From Bordetella parapertussis (lineage in GTDB: Bacteria > Pseudomonadota > Gammaproteobacteria > Burkholderiales > Burkholderiaceae_C), in the NCBI GenBank assembly GCA_945901225.1, contig CAMDKR010000006.1, positions 1 to 33,372 of the forward strand: DNA of 33,372 nucleotides. Direction: 5' to 3'. How positions within the stretch are numbered: the first letter of the stretch is position 1; each line of letters starts with the position of its first letter. This document shows positions 11,961 to 16,190 of the stretch, in pieces. The notes under the pieces were generated by a model. It saw only the letters and a list, made by a program, of their open reading frames with translations, made no database searches and was not told the origin of the DNA. The position numbers and the translations under genes were made by a program.

Positions 11961-13055
11961 ATGTCTATAGAACCCCGTTTCGCCCAAGAGCCCGCTTTTA
12001 CCCATGGTCAAGCCTCTCGTACCGCCATCGTCTACTGCAACCTGGGCACGCCTGACGCACCCACCGCACCTGCCCTGAGACGTTATTTGGCAGAGTTTTT
12101 AAGCGACCCCAGGGTGGTTGAAATCCCTCGTTTTTTGTGGCTTCTTATCCTGCACGGCATCATCTTGCGGGTGCGACCAGCCAAGTCGGCACAAAAATAC
12201 GCCAGCATCTGGACAGAGGAAGGCTCCCCGCTCAAAGTGTGGTCGCAGCGCCAAGCCGACGCCTTGCATCAAAAGTGGAGCGGCCGTGGGGTTCGGGTCC
12301 GTTTGATGATGCGCTATGGTTCCCCTGCCGTGGCAAAAGTGCTGGATGAACTCAAACAAGAAGGCGTCAACCGCGTGCTGGTCATTCCCGCCTACCCTCA
12401 GTATTCGGCCACCACCACCGCCAGCGTGTTCGACGCGGTCTACACCTGGGCTTTGCGCACTCGCCGCGTCCCCGAGTTGCGCTTTGTCAACAATTACCAC
12501 GATCACCCTGGCTATATCTCGGCACTTGCCGACAGCATTCAACGCCACTGGCAAACCCACGGCCGCAATGAACTGCTGGTCATGAGCTTTCACGGCGTGC
12601 CTGCGCGCACATTGAAATTGGGTGATCCTTACCACTGCGAGTGCCATAAAACTGCACGTTTGTTAGCGCACGCTTTGGGTTTATCCAAAGATCAATATAG
12701 GGTTTGCTTTCAGTCTAGGTTTGGCAAAGCCAAATGGCTGGAGCCTTACACAGAACCCACGGTTCGGGAATTGGCACAGGCTGGCTTGAAATCCATGGAC
12801 ATCGTTTGCCCTGGTTTTGTCGGCGACTGCTTAGAAACCTTGGAAGAAATCGCGATGGAAGTCAAAGAAGCGTTTTTGGAAGAAGGGGGCGAGGTTTATG
12901 GCTATATCCCTTGCCTGAACGACAGCCCCTTATGGATCCAAGCCCTGGAGGATTTAACGACTTCTCATCTGGCTGGCTGGCCTTTGCATCCTGCACCCGC
13001 CCATGAGGCCCAAGCCTCGCGCGAGGCAGCCTTGGCCATGGGCGCTGAGAATTAA
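11961..13055 (+). CDS. hemH: Ferrochelatase (protoheme ferro-lyase)
   Basis: HemH inserts Fe(II) into protoporphyrin IX, the last step of protoheme synthesis, at the cytoplasmic face of the membrane. The 364-residue product has the N-terminal AIVYCNLGTPDAPT motif, the conserved SFHGVP segment with metal-handling H211, and the CPGFVGDCLETLEEI signature with E292 and E295. The C-terminal tail of about 30 residues is Ala-rich and not conserved. The gene begins 14 nt after hpnE, so heme and squalene synthesis genes appear co-transcribed. It ends in a 4-nt convergent overlap with the HTH/transmembrane gene on the other strand, leaving no room for a dedicated terminator. Confidence 0.97.
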   Translation: MSIEPRFAQEPAFTHGQASRTAIVYCNLGTPDAPTAPALRRYLAEFLSDPRVVEIPRFLWLLILHGIILRVRPAKSAQKYASIWTEEGSPLKVWSQRQADALHQKWSGRGVRVRLMMRYGSPAVAKVLDELKQEGVNRVLVIPAYPQYSATTTASVFDAVYTWALRTRRVPELRFVNNYHDHPGYISALADSIQRHWQTHGRNELLVMSFHGVPARTLKLGDPYHCECHKTARLLAHALGLSKDQYRVCFQSRFGKAKWLEPYTEPTVRELAQAGLKSMDIVCPGFVGDCLETLEEIAMEVKEAFLEEGGEVYGYIPCLNDSPLWIQALEDLTTSHLAGWPLHPAPAHEAQASREAALAMGAEN

Positions 13056-13873
13056 CGCTCGGAGGGGGCTTTAGCGGGGTTTGTGTCTGATGTTGCCACT
13101 GGGGGTTTGACATCAGCTGTGCCTGCAGGAGCACCCTCAACGGTTGTTCCTGTCCCAGTGTCAGGCACTGCAGTTTCTCCTGCTGCAGGCGTCACGGGTG
13201 GGGTCATGCTTTGCCCTGTTGAAGCTTCTGGCGAGGAGGCCGTGGGTTCGACAGGCTTAGGGCGCATCAAGGCAGCCACAGCAATCGCCACCAAAAACAA
13301 GACCAAAATTTTCAGGAAATAGTTTCCAGAGGGACTGGGTTCGTCTGCCGCAGCTGTCTTAGATTCTTTGGCAGCCGATGTTTGTACAGGCGTTTGGGGC
13401 CTGTCATCAAGATGGCTGGCTTCTTCAGCCTGGGGCGAGGGGCTACTTGTCAGGTCCACTTCTGGAGGCTGTGCCAAGATGTGCAGGGCTTCGCTACGAA
13501 TCAAATGAACACCTGAAGACGCTAATGGGGTTTTATCCGCCGGCGCAGCATGAGCTTGGGCAGGCAACGATGTTGCAACGCTGGCAGAGGCAGATTGGGA
13601 AGGAAACAAAAGTGTCTCTTCCTCCATAGGCACAACAACAGGCGGCACTTGACCAAATAACTGCGCTTCACTGAGTTGCAAAAGACCAGCGATTTTTCTT
13701 GCAGCGGTCAGTTTGACGCTCTCGCTGTAAAAAGAACTCAGGCCGCCCTCTTCAATTTGGCGCACCTGTTTGACCGATAAACAGGCCCTGGCAGCGAGAT
13801 CGTTGATTGCCCAGCCCTGGGCTTCGCGGCACAAACGCACCGCACTTCCATCTATTTGAGAAACGTCCGACAT
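13052..13873 (-). CDS. RodZ-like HTH protein with one transmembrane helix
   Basis: The 273-residue protein starts with an HTH_25/RodZ-type helix-turn-helix domain (residues about 9-75, with LCREAQGWAINDLAARACLSVKQVRQIEEG). A 110-residue linker rich in Ala, Ser and Pro follows, then one membrane helix (about 185-203, YFLKILVLFLVAIAVAALM) and a 70-residue periplasmic tail of Pro, Thr, Ala and Gly. In RodZ the HTH binds MreB and the periplasmic part is a folded beta domain; here that domain is absent. It lies 30 nt downstream of a bactofilin on the same strand. This suggests it acts as a membrane adaptor for the cytoskeletal module rather than as a transcription factor. The HTH-plus-TM architecture is seen directly; the cell-shape role is inferred from context. 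Confidence 0.75.
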   Translation of the reverse strand: MSDVSQIDGSAVRLCREAQGWAINDLAARACLSVKQVRQIEEGGLSSFYSESVKLTAARKIAGLLQLSEAQLFGQVPPVVVPMEEETLLFPSQSASASVATSLPAQAHAAPADKTPLASSGVHLIRSEALHILAQPPEVDLTSSPSPQAEEASHLDDRPQTPVQTSAAKESKTAAADEPSPSGNYFLKILVLFLVAIAVAALMRPKPVEPTASSPEASTGQSMTPPVTPAAGETAVPDTGTGTTVEGAPAGTADVKPPVATSDTNPAKAPSER

Positions 13874-13903
13874 TCCAAGCCTTAAGCGGGTCAGCGAAAG
13901 GCT

Positions 13904-14374
13904 TTACTTTACCAGCAGCAACTCGCCCTTGATAGAGGCGCCTTTTTGTACTGACAAAGTTTGGTAAACCACATGGCCGTCCACCGAGGCAGAAGAAGTG
14001 ACGATCAACTCGCTGCAGGTGGCTGTGCCTGAAAACTTACCCTTGATATGAAGGCTCGAGCAAGTCACCACACCTTCAACCTGGCCACGCGAGCCGATGG
14101 TGAGTTCATCCACTTGAACTTGACCATTGAGAGAGCCTTCAACATGAATGGCACCCTTGGCGGAAATTTCACCTCGAAAGGAAAAGCCCTCGCTCAAAAT
14201 AGAGGGTTTCGAGGCATTAGAAGAAATGATATCCATCATGGTATTTCTCTGAGGTTGATCTAGCGGAACCGGCTCGCTGGAGACTGGTGACTGTACAGGA
14301 GCAACAGGCGGGGGGGCAACTGTAGCGCTCTGGACGGCCGGATTAGGGCTGGTTGTTTTGGATTTACTGAACAT
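13904..14374 (-). CDS. Bactofilin A (polymer-forming cytoskeletal protein), distal copy
   Basis: Bactofilins polymerise without nucleotide through a right-handed beta-helix and place cell-wall enzymes at chosen membrane sites. In this 156-residue protein the beta-helix covers about residues 57-154, with repeats such as GEISAKGAIHVEGSLNGQV and SSLHIKGKFSGTATCSEL. It is preceded by a flexible Pro/Ser/Val-rich segment. The N-terminus MFSKSK resembles the short amphipathic membrane-targeting peptide described for Caulobacter BacA (MFSK-). That supports the start at 14374, which overlaps the end of the M23 gene by 11 nt. Two internal methionines at 46-47 would lose this element. It is the third gene of the module. 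Confidence 0.9.
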   Translation of the reverse strand: MFSKSKTTSPNPAVQSATVAPPPVAPVQSPVSSEPVPLDQPQRNTMMDIISSNASKPSILSEGFSFRGEISAKGAIHVEGSLNGQVQVDELTIGSRGQVEGVVTCSSLHIKGKFSGTATCSELIVTSSASVDGHVVYQTLSVQKGASIKGELLLVK

Positions 14375-15395
14375 ATTGGGCGGTACGGATCACTTTTTGA
14401 GGATTTACAGGATAACCTCCCACCAATATCTCAAAATGCAGATGTTTGCCGGTTGAAAATCCAGTGTTACCAATATAGCCCAAGACATTATCGTTTGTCA
14501 CCTTATCGCCCACCTTGACCAACAACTGTGCCATGTGGGCATACAAAGACTCCACGCCATTTGAGTGACGCACGACAACGGTGTTGCCATACTGGGGGTG
14601 GAATTCTGACATAACTACAACACCAGGTTTGACGGCAAAGACTTTATCATCACCCGTTGCGCTCATGATGTCGATACCTGTATGGAAATGGGACTTACCG
14701 GTGAGTGGGTGTTTGCGGATACCAAAATCAGAGGAAAAGCTGTAATTGGTCACAGGCATGCGATTGGGCAAAGCGTACAGCACTTCACGCAAAGACCGGT
14801 TGGTGGACAACTCTTCCGCGACCTTGCCACGCATCAAAGGATTTGACTGCAAATCACCATCCAAGGTGAAACCACCGTTGGCGGAATTTTGTTGAATGAT
14901 TTTGATTATTTTTTCAGTCAGACCAGAGGTTTCCAGTTGCGACTTGAGGCTGTCGTTTTCTTCTGAAACAGCCACCATGGATGTTTCTACGAAACGACGA
15001 ATGCTCATATCCCTGTCGCGGATGGTTTGCGCCAAGCTGACCATTTGCTCCTCGGTCAAGGCATGCTGGTTTTCTATGTCCTGCTGCGATTCGGCGGTGC
15101 TGCTGATCAAGGCCCTGAAAACCTCTTCATGAGAACGCTCAAGGCGTGCGCGGCTGATGCCAAGCGACAAGGAAGTAATTGATAAAGCAATTAGACTAAC
15201 CAAAATTACTGCAGTCAAAACAATGCTGCCGCGAGCGAAGACCCGCTGGAAACGCCCAGGAATATTGAAATACCGCAGATCGCCACTTTGCTCAATGATG
15301 AGTTTGACATCTTGGTAATCGCGCAACCAAAGCTGACGCACAAGGTACGGCAAAGCTCTCAACTGAGATAAAAAAGTAATGAGCGCGAAACGCAT
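14364..15395 (-). CDS. Membrane-anchored M23 (LytM) peptidoglycan endopeptidase
   Basis: M23 enzymes are zinc peptidases that cut cross-linking peptides in the cell wall. The 343-residue protein has a cytoplasmic N-terminus of about 55 residues, one membrane helix (about 57-79), a periplasmic helical/coiled region (about 83-170) and the C-terminal M23 domain (about 220-335). All catalytic residues are present: zinc ligands H238 and D242 in HTGID, H287 in SLYAHM, and H320 in HLHFE. It should therefore be active, unlike degenerate LytM factors such as EnvC. The bitopic layout with a sizeable cytoplasmic tail, placed between two bactofilin genes, matches the LmdC-type peptidases reported to be recruited by bactofilins. 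No clear ribosome-binding site precedes the ATG, so coupling to the upstream bactofilin gene 28 nt away is possible. Confidence 0.93.
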   Translation of the reverse strand: MRFALITFLSQLRALPYLVRQLWLRDYQDVKLIIEQSGDLRYFNIPGRFQRVFARGSIVLTAVILVSLIALSITSLSLGISRARLERSHEEVFRALISSTAESQQDIENQHALTEEQMVSLAQTIRDRDMSIRRFVETSMVAVSEENDSLKSQLETSGLTEKIIKIIQQNSANGGFTLDGDLQSNPLMRGKVAEELSTNRSLREVLYALPNRMPVTNYSFSSDFGIRKHPLTGKSHFHTGIDIMSATGDDKVFAVKPGVVVMSEFHPQYGNTVVVRHSNGVESLYAHMAQLLVKVGDKVTNDNVLGYIGNTGFSTGKHLHFEILVGGYPVNPQKVIRTAQYVQ

Positions 15396-15423
15396 AAATC
15401 TTGTAAATTAAATCTGAGAACGC

Positions 15424-15801
15424 TTAAGGCTTAGAAGGGCTAGGGGGAGCTGCGGAGGGCGCTATGGGCTCGGCACCTTGGTTGAGCGCACCTTCAATTT
15501 CACCGCCCTTTTCAATCTCGATTTCTGAATAGTGAATTTTCCCCACTATTTTTCCAGTTGTCCGAACAATGAGGCTTTTTTCACTGACGATGGTGTTGTG
15601 AAGTTGACCGCGAACGTCAATCACTTTGGCCGAAACGCGTCCACTGATACGTCCTGTGGGGCCAATCAAGACCTCTTCTGCCGTCAAGTCACCTTCGATC
15701 ACGCCATTGATCACGGCTTTGGACGGAACGGTAAACGCACCCTTGACAACAACGCCGTCACCAATGACAACGCTTTCTAAAGTATCGGATTGATTAGCCA
15801 T
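15424..15801 (-). CDS. Bactofilin B, proximal copy
   Basis: The 125-residue protein is almost entirely the bactofilin beta-helix (about residues 9-106), with motifs such as GVIEGDLTAEEVLIGPTGRISGRV in regular spacing. A short Pro/Ala/Ser tail follows. Unlike the distal copy it lacks an MFSK-type N-terminus, so its membrane attachment may depend on co-polymerisation or on the M23 partner. A good Shine-Dalgarno AAGGAG (complement of 15807-15812) lies 5 nt before the ATG. It is the first gene of the minus-strand module and is read from the AT-rich intergenic region shared with the type I secretion genes. The two bactofilins differ clearly outside the core, so they are not a recent tandem copy. 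Confidence 0.92.
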   Translation of the reverse strand: MANQSDTLESVVIGDGVVVKGAFTVPSKAVINGVIEGDLTAEEVLIGPTGRISGRVSAKVIDVRGQLHNTIVSEKSLIVRTTGKIVGKIHYSEIEIEKGGEIEGALNQGAEPIAPSAAPPSPSKP

Positions 15802-16190
15802 ACATGCTCCTTATTCGACATCTTAGCAAAGAATCAATGTAAATTAAGTTTTTTATTGAAGCTATTGATTTTATTGAGAAAAATTTAAATTATTGGTTAT
15901 TGCCTTCAAAAATACAAAATATAATTTATATTATAGTATTCATATTTAAAAATATTAAAGTTATTAATAATTCATTATAAAAGCTGAACAGCATTTCCAA
16001 ATTGCCAAAAAAATTCACTAATTAGTGAATTCGAGGTTGTTTTGCAACGCTTAAATGAGATAAAGGAAGAAATTGCCTTCATTAACGATTTTTTCTAATG
16101 TTGCGCATTCAAAAAATCTCACAATTTCTTGTAATTTAACAGTTTATTCCCGAATCAATCAATTTTTAAATTCTAACGTCGAAACTCAGC
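15802..16190. other. AT-rich divergent intergenic region between bactofilin module and type I secretion operon
   Basis: This 389-bp stretch has no gene. Bases 15841-15960 contain only 17 G or C among 120, far below the coding DNA on either side. It must hold the promoters of both flanking operons. On the bactofilin side a TAAGAT-like -10 lies about 25 nt before the start, without a convincing -35. On the secretion side TAATTT/TTTAAC stretches lie 45-60 nt before the tolC-like start, again without a clear -35. A perfect 20-bp palindrome lies at 16012-16031. Such AT-rich, curved-looking DNA is typical of sites bound by H-NS-like proteins, which is inference here. Confidence 0.7.
16012..16031. 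promoter_or_regulatory. Perfect 20-bp palindrome, candidate operator
   Basis: AATTCACTAATTAGTGAATT is a perfect inverted repeat (10 of 10 pairs) centred between 16021 and 16022, about 160 bp upstream of the type I secretion operon and 210 bp upstream of the bactofilin operon. It is not followed by a T-run and the stem is AT-rich, so it looks like a dimer-binding operator and not a terminator. The binding protein is unknown. Confidence 0.55.

Follow-up and report, generated by a model that had tools for sequence, protein, structure and literature searches.

How bactofilin polymers choose their partners and their place in the cell is an open question, and it is raised by a set of four genes in a bacterial genome of the order Burkholderiales. 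The window, the whole stretch of 33,372 nucleotides (nt) that was analysed, is contig CAMDKR010000006.1 of assembly GCA_945901225.1, here contig C6 of a genome 1.77 Mb in size and 77% complete. In all counts below, "genus" means the genus of this genome, termed the Limnohabitans group, freshwater bacteria, a label without formal placement; G, C and L numbers are our handles for genomes, contigs and loci. At positions 13052-15801, four open reading frames (ORFs) on the minus strand encode, in gene order, a bactofilin (bac1), a membrane-anchored M23 peptidase, a second bactofilin (bac2) and a helix-turn-helix (HTH) protein with one transmembrane (TM) segment, the HTH-TM protein. From the genes, order, domains, conserved residues and selection pattern observed directly, and from the observed recurrence of HTH genes beside bactofilins, we infer a bactofilin-M23 cell-shape module with an HTH-TM membrane partner that would act independently of MreB. 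To this reading, with the contacts, activity, location and effect on shape that it entails, we give a probability of about 0.6.

Conservation of the Gene Order within the Genus

A long M23 match is present in 70 of 84 genus genomes, and in 36 of the 40 with a completeness of 90% or more and a contamination of 5% or less. The order bac1-M23-bac2-HTH is found on one strand in 41/41 wide genus loci (L039, L073-L112), hand-picked from genomes with an M23 match and partly for their long contigs. A second set of 70 named-genome contigs is not independent of these loci. Where enough flank is available, bac1 precedes the M23 gene in 67/67 of them and bac2 follows it in 66/66, and the HTH gene lies within 1.5 kb after bac2 in 62/66. 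The script counts for the same contigs are 64/67 for bac1, 60/66 for bac2, 62/66 for the HTH gene and 48/60 for hemH; the three bac1 and six bac2 genes missed by the script are present on reading, their hit ends overlapping beyond its distance limits. Loss of the gene order in close relatives, which the preliminary description had named as grounds for abandoning its proposal, was not observed (41/41 and 62/66). The kept order, together with domains in which very few amino acids change, confirms that the arrangement is more than chance.

The neighbourhood is also similar across the genus, with hemH convergent beside the HTH gene in 37 of the 41 wide loci (L089 ends there, and L109, L110 and L111 differ). 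In L169, L171, L174 and L176, the HTH gene is found about 3.4-4.0 kb beyond bac2, beside a gene for a divergent second M23 protein (M23'), and in three of these four loci a third bactofilin occupies the usual place of the HTH gene. A gene upstream in L171 and L174 is presumably zapD-like, judging from its sequence. In L196:1046-9250, and also in L109, L110 and L111, the genes form a joined cluster of RodZ-like HTH, M23', bactofilin', bac1, M23, bac2 and HTH. The L196 cluster lies beside what we take, again from the sequences, to be minC- and minD-like genes.

Recurrence of HTH Genes beside Bactofilins

That such pairs recur is the best evidence that the HTH gene and the bactofilins belong together. 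Among 107 bactofilin and 71 HTH_25 matches in 18 genus genomes, 31 of the 71 HTH_25 matches have a same-strand bactofilin no more than 2.5 kb away (13/53 without the module), where about 0.4 would be expected under uniform placement; the 31 are largely inherited copies. In a control of 56 bactofilin-bearing genomes from other genera of the class, which holds one genome per genus, unlike the sample, and includes one (G114) from the same family, 0/106 HTH_25 matches are near any of 81 bactofilins. Counted per genome, the pairing occurs in 18/18 genus genomes versus 0/56 controls. Five rows from the window's genome and four below the cut-off are left out of the control count, and pairs split across contigs are missed in both sets alike.

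Four arrangements can be told apart: the module (18 genomes), HTH-bactofilin-MreB (3), HTH-bactofilin (8) and an HTH gene before an M23'-bactofilin pair (2). The second includes an MreB paralogue and a histidine kinase in L043:2491-4221, on contig C77 of the window's own genome, and in L194:3957-5789; the paralogue and kinase content was read in these two of the three such clusters. The HTH proteins of L194 and L195 have no membrane helix by hydropathy, and in G174 (L195) the MreB and bactofilin genes are missing between the HTH and kinase genes. In the third, as in L188, L199:3834-5230, L200 and L205, a RodZ-like HTH gene (about 320-340 amino acids, aa) is directly followed by a bactofilin with an MFK-type start. 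In L189:3449-4964, L201 and L245, the gene for an HTH protein of 145 aa, with its membrane helix at the C-terminus, is divergent from a TetR-like gene and a bactofilin. The L189 HTH gene neighbours genes that we take to be the flagellar fliN/fliM/fliL-like set. The second M23'-bactofilin pair with its adjoining HTH gene occurs in L109-L111 and L196.

Organization of the Locus

The spacings of the four same-strand genes given in the preliminary description are confirmed by the ORFs: 28 nt between bac1 and the M23 gene, an 11-nt overlap between the M23 gene and bac2, and 30 nt between bac2 and the HTH-TM gene, which itself overlaps the convergent hemH by 4 nt (13052-13055). Its account of the products as two bactofilins with distinct ends, a catalytically complete membrane-anchored peptidase and a RodZ-like HTH-TM protein without the periplasmic domain is borne out by the results below. 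The features are collected in Table 1.

Table 1. Features of the four-gene module, in window positions
Feature	Position	Strand	Basis
AAGGAG, ribosome-binding-like, ahead of bac1	15807..15812	-	direct sequence reading
bac1 (first gene; 125 aa), short bactofilin lacking a membrane-targeting start	15424..15801	-	PF04519 70.7 bits
LmdC-like membrane-anchored M23 peptidase, 343 aa	14364..15395	-	PF01551 102.5 bits
M23 predicted cytoplasmic beta-hairpin, residues 30-45	15261..15308	-	AlphaFold2 strands 30-36, 39-45
M23 membrane segment, residues 58-76	15168..15224	-	hydropathy maximum 2.6
M23 catalytic region, residues 206-336	14388..14780	-	PF01551, Foldseek
bac2 (156 aa; start codon within M23 gene), bactofilin carrying a membrane-targeting start	13904..14374	-	PF04519 80.1 bits
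Bac2 membrane-targeting start MFSKSKTT	14351..14374	-	MF..K-type start in 61/68 relatives
Bac2 linker Met-Met-Asp, residues 46-48, possible internal start	14231..14239	-	conservation
RodZ-like HTH protein, one membrane segment, short disordered end, 273 aa	13052..13873	-	PF13413 24.7 bits, AlphaFold2
HTH domain, residues 8-75	13649..13852	-	AlphaFold2 helices 9-72, mostly high pLDDT
HTH protein membrane segment, residues 184-202	13268..13324	-	helix in AlphaFold2 model

The four genes probably form a single, translationally coupled transcript. By eye, the ribosome-binding-like sequence of bac1 is a good one, and the M23 and bac2 starts show nothing as clear. The overlap of bac2 with the M23 gene measures 26-32 nt in 38 of the 41 fetched loci; of the other three, L102 and L103 have lost the bac2 start, and that of L109 was not placed by the script. 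The window's M23 gene (stop codon 14364-14366) ends about seven codons earlier than its relatives, such as L073, and its overlap with bac2 is therefore 11 nt instead of the usual 32.

The M23 Peptidase

The M23 protein scores 102.5 bits against PF01551 (cut-off 28.7), with the domain at residues 237-332. H238, D242, H318 and H320 are present in 43/43 aligned copies and H287 in 27/27; we take these five to be the catalytic positions of the M23 family. A single strongly hydrophobic stretch of 19 residues is found in 43/43 of the proteins. In the AlphaFold2 model (mean predicted local distance difference test score, pLDDT, 80.2; predicted template modelling score, pTM, 0.54), a helix at residues 47-105 runs through the membrane and is followed by a second helix (115-156) and then the M23 fold, for which Foldseek returns V. 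cholerae 2gu1, ShyA 6ue4 and H. pylori Csd1-Csd2 5j1l. The features of the LmdC type that are present, in part by prediction, are the hairpin, the membrane helix, a coiled coil (read only from the long helices), the M23 domain with complete zinc and catalytic residues, and the bactofilin neighbour.

The hairpin is the part of this protein that may dock onto the polymer. In Rhodospirillum rubrum LmdC it is reported to be required for BacA binding, and LmdC with changes in it was no longer enriched at the inner curve, the site of BacA (PMC10945521). Comparison of the window with four near relatives gives pN values (nonsynonymous differences) of 0.014-0.099 for the hairpin region, residues 26-55, versus 0.239-0.374 for residues 1-25, and these values indicate that the hairpin is under purifying selection. 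The membrane helix changes freely (pN 0.275-0.385).

The Two Bactofilins

Both bactofilins match PF04519 (bac1 70.7 bits, bac2 80.1 bits, cut-off 27.9), and in both domains amino-acid changes between near relatives are very few. Their ends are distinct: an MF..K-type start is found in 61/68 relatives of Bac2 and in 0/66 relatives of Bac1. An N-terminal membrane-targeting peptide is common in bactofilins but does not define them. Caulobacter BacA is reported to have MFSKQAKS as its membrane signal, a start of the same type as the MFSKSKTT of Bac2, and MFSKKKK is given as a wide consensus (PMC12448750). According to the same paper, bactofilin membrane attachment comes partly from client proteins, and the overproduced client PbpC can substitute for the BacA membrane signal (PMC12448750).

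Among the seven Bac2 relatives without an MF..K call, the N-terminus is interrupted in L148, L155 and L164, and the frame is broken within the domain in L124. In L156 the start is present and a masked stretch comes after it. The long N-termini of L167 and L168 are intact, with starts that the pattern does not catch (MFKIS in the contig of L167). In L102 and L103 (contigs of L148 and L155) and in L164, the membrane signal is interrupted while the bactofilin domain is intact. The Bac2 linker is otherwise variable, but M46 (39/43), M47 (42/43) and D48 (41/43) are kept, and translation of the interrupted copies could start at this Met-Met-Asp; as the genomes are drafts, the interruption is given as an observation only. 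The module does not hold all the bactofilins of these genomes, since at least two more are present in 18/18 genus genomes searched.

The HTH-TM Protein

The HTH protein matches HTH_25 (PF13413) with 24.7 bits, just past the cut-off of 24.6, and a single strongly hydrophobic stretch of 19 residues is found in 42/42 HTH proteins. Its model (mean pLDDT 64.7) consists of a five-helix domain of high confidence and a membrane helix, with disorder elsewhere. No folded domain is predicted beyond the membrane segment, so the periplasmic C-terminal domain that is a feature of RodZ is missing. With VIA-align, the top structural neighbours are of RodZ type: 3fym (Z 10.3, root-mean-square deviation, rmsd, 1.7, 68 residues aligned) and 2wus_S (Z 10.1, rmsd 2.5, 72 aligned). 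SinR is third (Z 9.4) and is counted by the tool as tied with the RodZ rows. Foldseek with the HTH model gave no match under E 0.001, and the best match of an HTH profile among the sequences of solved structures has E 0.012. Two parts of the protein are constrained, with pN of 0.027-0.089 for residues 1-80 and 0-0.082 for the membrane helix (181-207), against 0.36-0.46 for the linker and tail. A tree from the HTH domain alone is weak, with partly odd placements, and no claim of descent is drawn from it.

By the features tested, the product of the fourth gene is not a RodZ, although its predicted HTH fold is RodZ-like. Against the NCBIfam RodZ model it scores 18.2 bits, where the cut-off is 208. 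F60 and Y64 of E. coli RodZ are reported to be required for MreB contact (PMC4047632), and the module HTH proteins have V/I and A/S/V/T at these positions in 42/42. This residue test is only moderate because the canonical RodZ of the genus (L193) also lacks the aromatics, with L and V there in a gapped alignment. MreB was looked for in eight genus genomes, of which six have two, one has one and G174 has none detectable; G174 is 97% complete, carries the module (at L081) and gives no MreB match at 1e-15. An MreB link as the main role of the protein, the tie of polymer to MreB that the preliminary description had offered, was rejected as the best explanation on these two observations, the missing aromatics (42/42) and the module kept in G174.

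Canonical rodZ is a separate gene in G080, between rlmN- and ispG-like genes as in E. coli. In 7 of 18 genus genomes, the window's included, no HTH_25 match was found to beat 1e-10, which is the level that canonical RodZ reaches in G080. Contig C108 of G000 (L044:3611-4555) encodes a RodZ-like protein with a longer C-terminal part and an EEGG/FYS pattern.

Distribution outside the Genus

The preliminary description proposed a search for the four-gene order across Burkholderiales. The order is kept in the genus, and elsewhere only a relative without the HTH gene was found, in one family genome; the module was not found as a broad feature of Burkholderiales. A profile of the N-terminal half of the M23 protein matched 1/399 genomes of the order, the window's own, in a search where misses are possible because, for some genomes, the scoring covered only 7 of a larger number of candidates. 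In the family, where at least 149 of 150 genomes have some M23 match, the matches listed include an M23 protein aligned from tail to end only in G080, of the same genus, and G051. In G051 the genes bac1-M23-bac2 are 30-36% identical to those of the window and are not followed by an HTH gene. The HTH protein was matched in 2/150 family genomes, both of this genus, and its domain profile in 23/299 genomes, 19 of them outside the genus and mostly weak. In G710, a distant genome of the class (L208:5696-8037), the order is bactofilin-bactofilin-M23-bactofilin, the last starting MFGKKK, with no HTH gene in the cluster. Because G051 and G710 have the core without the HTH gene, the core of two bactofilins and M23 extends beyond the genus, to which the HTH gene seems to be a local addition. 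Nor is there any sign of a mobile copy in the plasmid collection: no M23 match covered 80% of the query, and Bac2 matches in 28 records are all below 60% identity.

Proposed Mechanism and Alternatives

In the proposed mechanism, Bac2 polymers would be anchored to the inner membrane through their N-terminal MFSK peptide, and Bac1, which has no membrane signal, would join them or run alongside. The cytoplasmic beta-hairpin of the membrane-anchored M23 protein would dock onto the polymer, and the periplasmic M23 domain would then cut peptide cross-links only where the polymer sits. The HTH-TM protein would be a second membrane-spanning partner, with a cytoplasmic HTH domain that contacts either bactofilin or the tail of the M23 protein and a membrane helix that adds tethering, and MreB would not be needed. 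The result would be a local remodelling of the wall that sets cell shape. The HTH protein is judged to be a partner of bactofilin or M23, not a link to MreB, because the aromatics are absent and the module is kept without detectable MreB. The positioning of wall cleavage suggested by the preliminary description remains the best reading, while the "self-contained" nature it gave the device is unproven: the HTH gene is not at that place in 4/66 loci, and there are the further bactofilins noted above.

Several observations weigh against this reading. The HTH gene is displaced in four of the 66 named loci (L169, L171, L174 and L176). Its HTH_25 score is borderline, and ordinary DNA-binding repressors come close behind RodZ among its structural neighbours. 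HTH genes of the EEGG/FYS pattern in L044, L220, L221, L240 and L243 have no flanking bactofilin (tblastn, E 1e-3, in the flank available). L044 is a 5.6-kb contig of the window's genome, L240 is from the genus-mate G151, and L220, L221 and L243 are from another genus of the family; pairing with bactofilins is therefore frequent, not obligatory. Finally, the module is present in the ovoid isolate B9-3 (L134), so that its presence alone is not enough to curve the cell.

As XRE-type HTH domains often are, the HTH protein may be a transcription regulator, here tethered to the membrane and acting on the set itself or on wall genes, instead of a structural partner. Its XRE-like fold, with SinR (tied with the RodZ rows), HipB and phage repressors among the neighbours, and the position of its gene as the last in the set would fit such a role. 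We consider this unlikely, however, as the two top structural rows are RodZ-type (3fym and 2wus_S), the membrane helix is conserved, and such genes recur near bactofilins at different genomic places of the genus. It is quite unlikely that the protein is instead a mini-RodZ linking the bactofilin polymer to MreB and the elongasome. Chlamydia RodZ binds MreB without a periplasmic domain (PMC4047632), the fold here is RodZ-like, and an MreB paralogue stands in another HTH-bactofilin cluster of the same genome (L043). Yet the F60/Y64 positions are non-aromatic in 42/42, a residue test that is moderate given L193, and G174 keeps the module with no MreB match at 1e-15. A role of the module in division or cell separation, not lateral shape, seems very unlikely: related clusters do lie beside minC-minD-like (L196) or zapD-like (L171, L174) genes, as named from their sequences, but the neighbour in the window and in 37/41 fetched loci is hemH, which is not a division gene.

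If the proposed cell-shape module is taken further, HTH-TM proteins might be a new class of bactofilin partner, an MreB-free counterpart of RodZ that has been recruited repeatedly in Limnohabitans, with M23, with an MreB paralogue or alone, and whose swapping helps to diversify shape from cocci to C-shaped cells. We offer this wider idea tentatively, as something short of an even chance. Isolates of the genus are reported to range from cocci to large C-shaped cells at low 16S diversity (PMC3591437), and L. australis cells are described as curved rods (PMC3031073). The genus offers a natural series for the question of partner and place: its bactofilins stand close to RodZ-like HTH genes in four different arrangements, two of which also bring in an M23 gene, and the eight genomes checked have two, one or no detectable MreB. 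With such a series one can test whether a membrane protein with an HTH domain can do for bactofilin what RodZ does for MreB, and how cell shape responds when a wall-cutting scaffold changes slightly.

Comparison with Known Systems

The combination was put forward as new in the preliminary description, and this holds in part. Bactofilin-M23 systems (PMC10945521) and a RodZ without a periplasmic domain (PMC4047632) are already known, whereas no description was found of the second bactofilin with an HTH-TM partner. Among the open-licence papers listed, no title describes the pairing of an HTH protein with a bactofilin, and no open-licence paper was found that treats bactofilin and Limnohabitans together.

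The M23 proteins Csd1 and Csd2 of Helicobacter pylori are described as working with the bactofilin CcmA in cell shape, much as is proposed here. We know of no second bactofilin or HTH partner in that system. Rhodomicrobium vannielii, like the present genus, has more than one bactofilin, and these interact and act on cell shape (PMC10259793); that paper reports MreB and RodZ as missing and mentions neither an M23 protein nor an operon. RodZ of E. coli and the HTH protein both have an N-terminal HTH_25 domain and one membrane helix. Chlamydia RodZ resembles the HTH protein in having no periplasmic domain, and nonetheless still binds MreB (PMC4047632). Unlike RodZ, the HTH protein lacks the MreB-contact aromatics and falls far under the NCBIfam RodZ cut-off.

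The closest likeness is to BacA-LmdC of Hyphomonas neptunium and Rhodospirillum rubrum (PMC10945521), where, as here, a bactofilin gene overlaps the gene for a bitopic M23 protein. LmdC and, by prediction, the window's M23 protein share the cytoplasmic beta-hairpin, membrane helix, coiled coil and complete M23 domain. Neighbouring bactofilin and M23 genes are reported from 226 species, and the legend of the figure carries a beta-proteobacterial label (PMC10945521). Unlike BacA-LmdC, the module has a second bactofilin without a membrane signal upstream and an HTH-TM gene downstream. Judging from the genes, then, the bactofilin-M23 part would belong to a known kind of cell-shape system, to which the second bactofilin and the small membrane partner appear to be a newly found addition.

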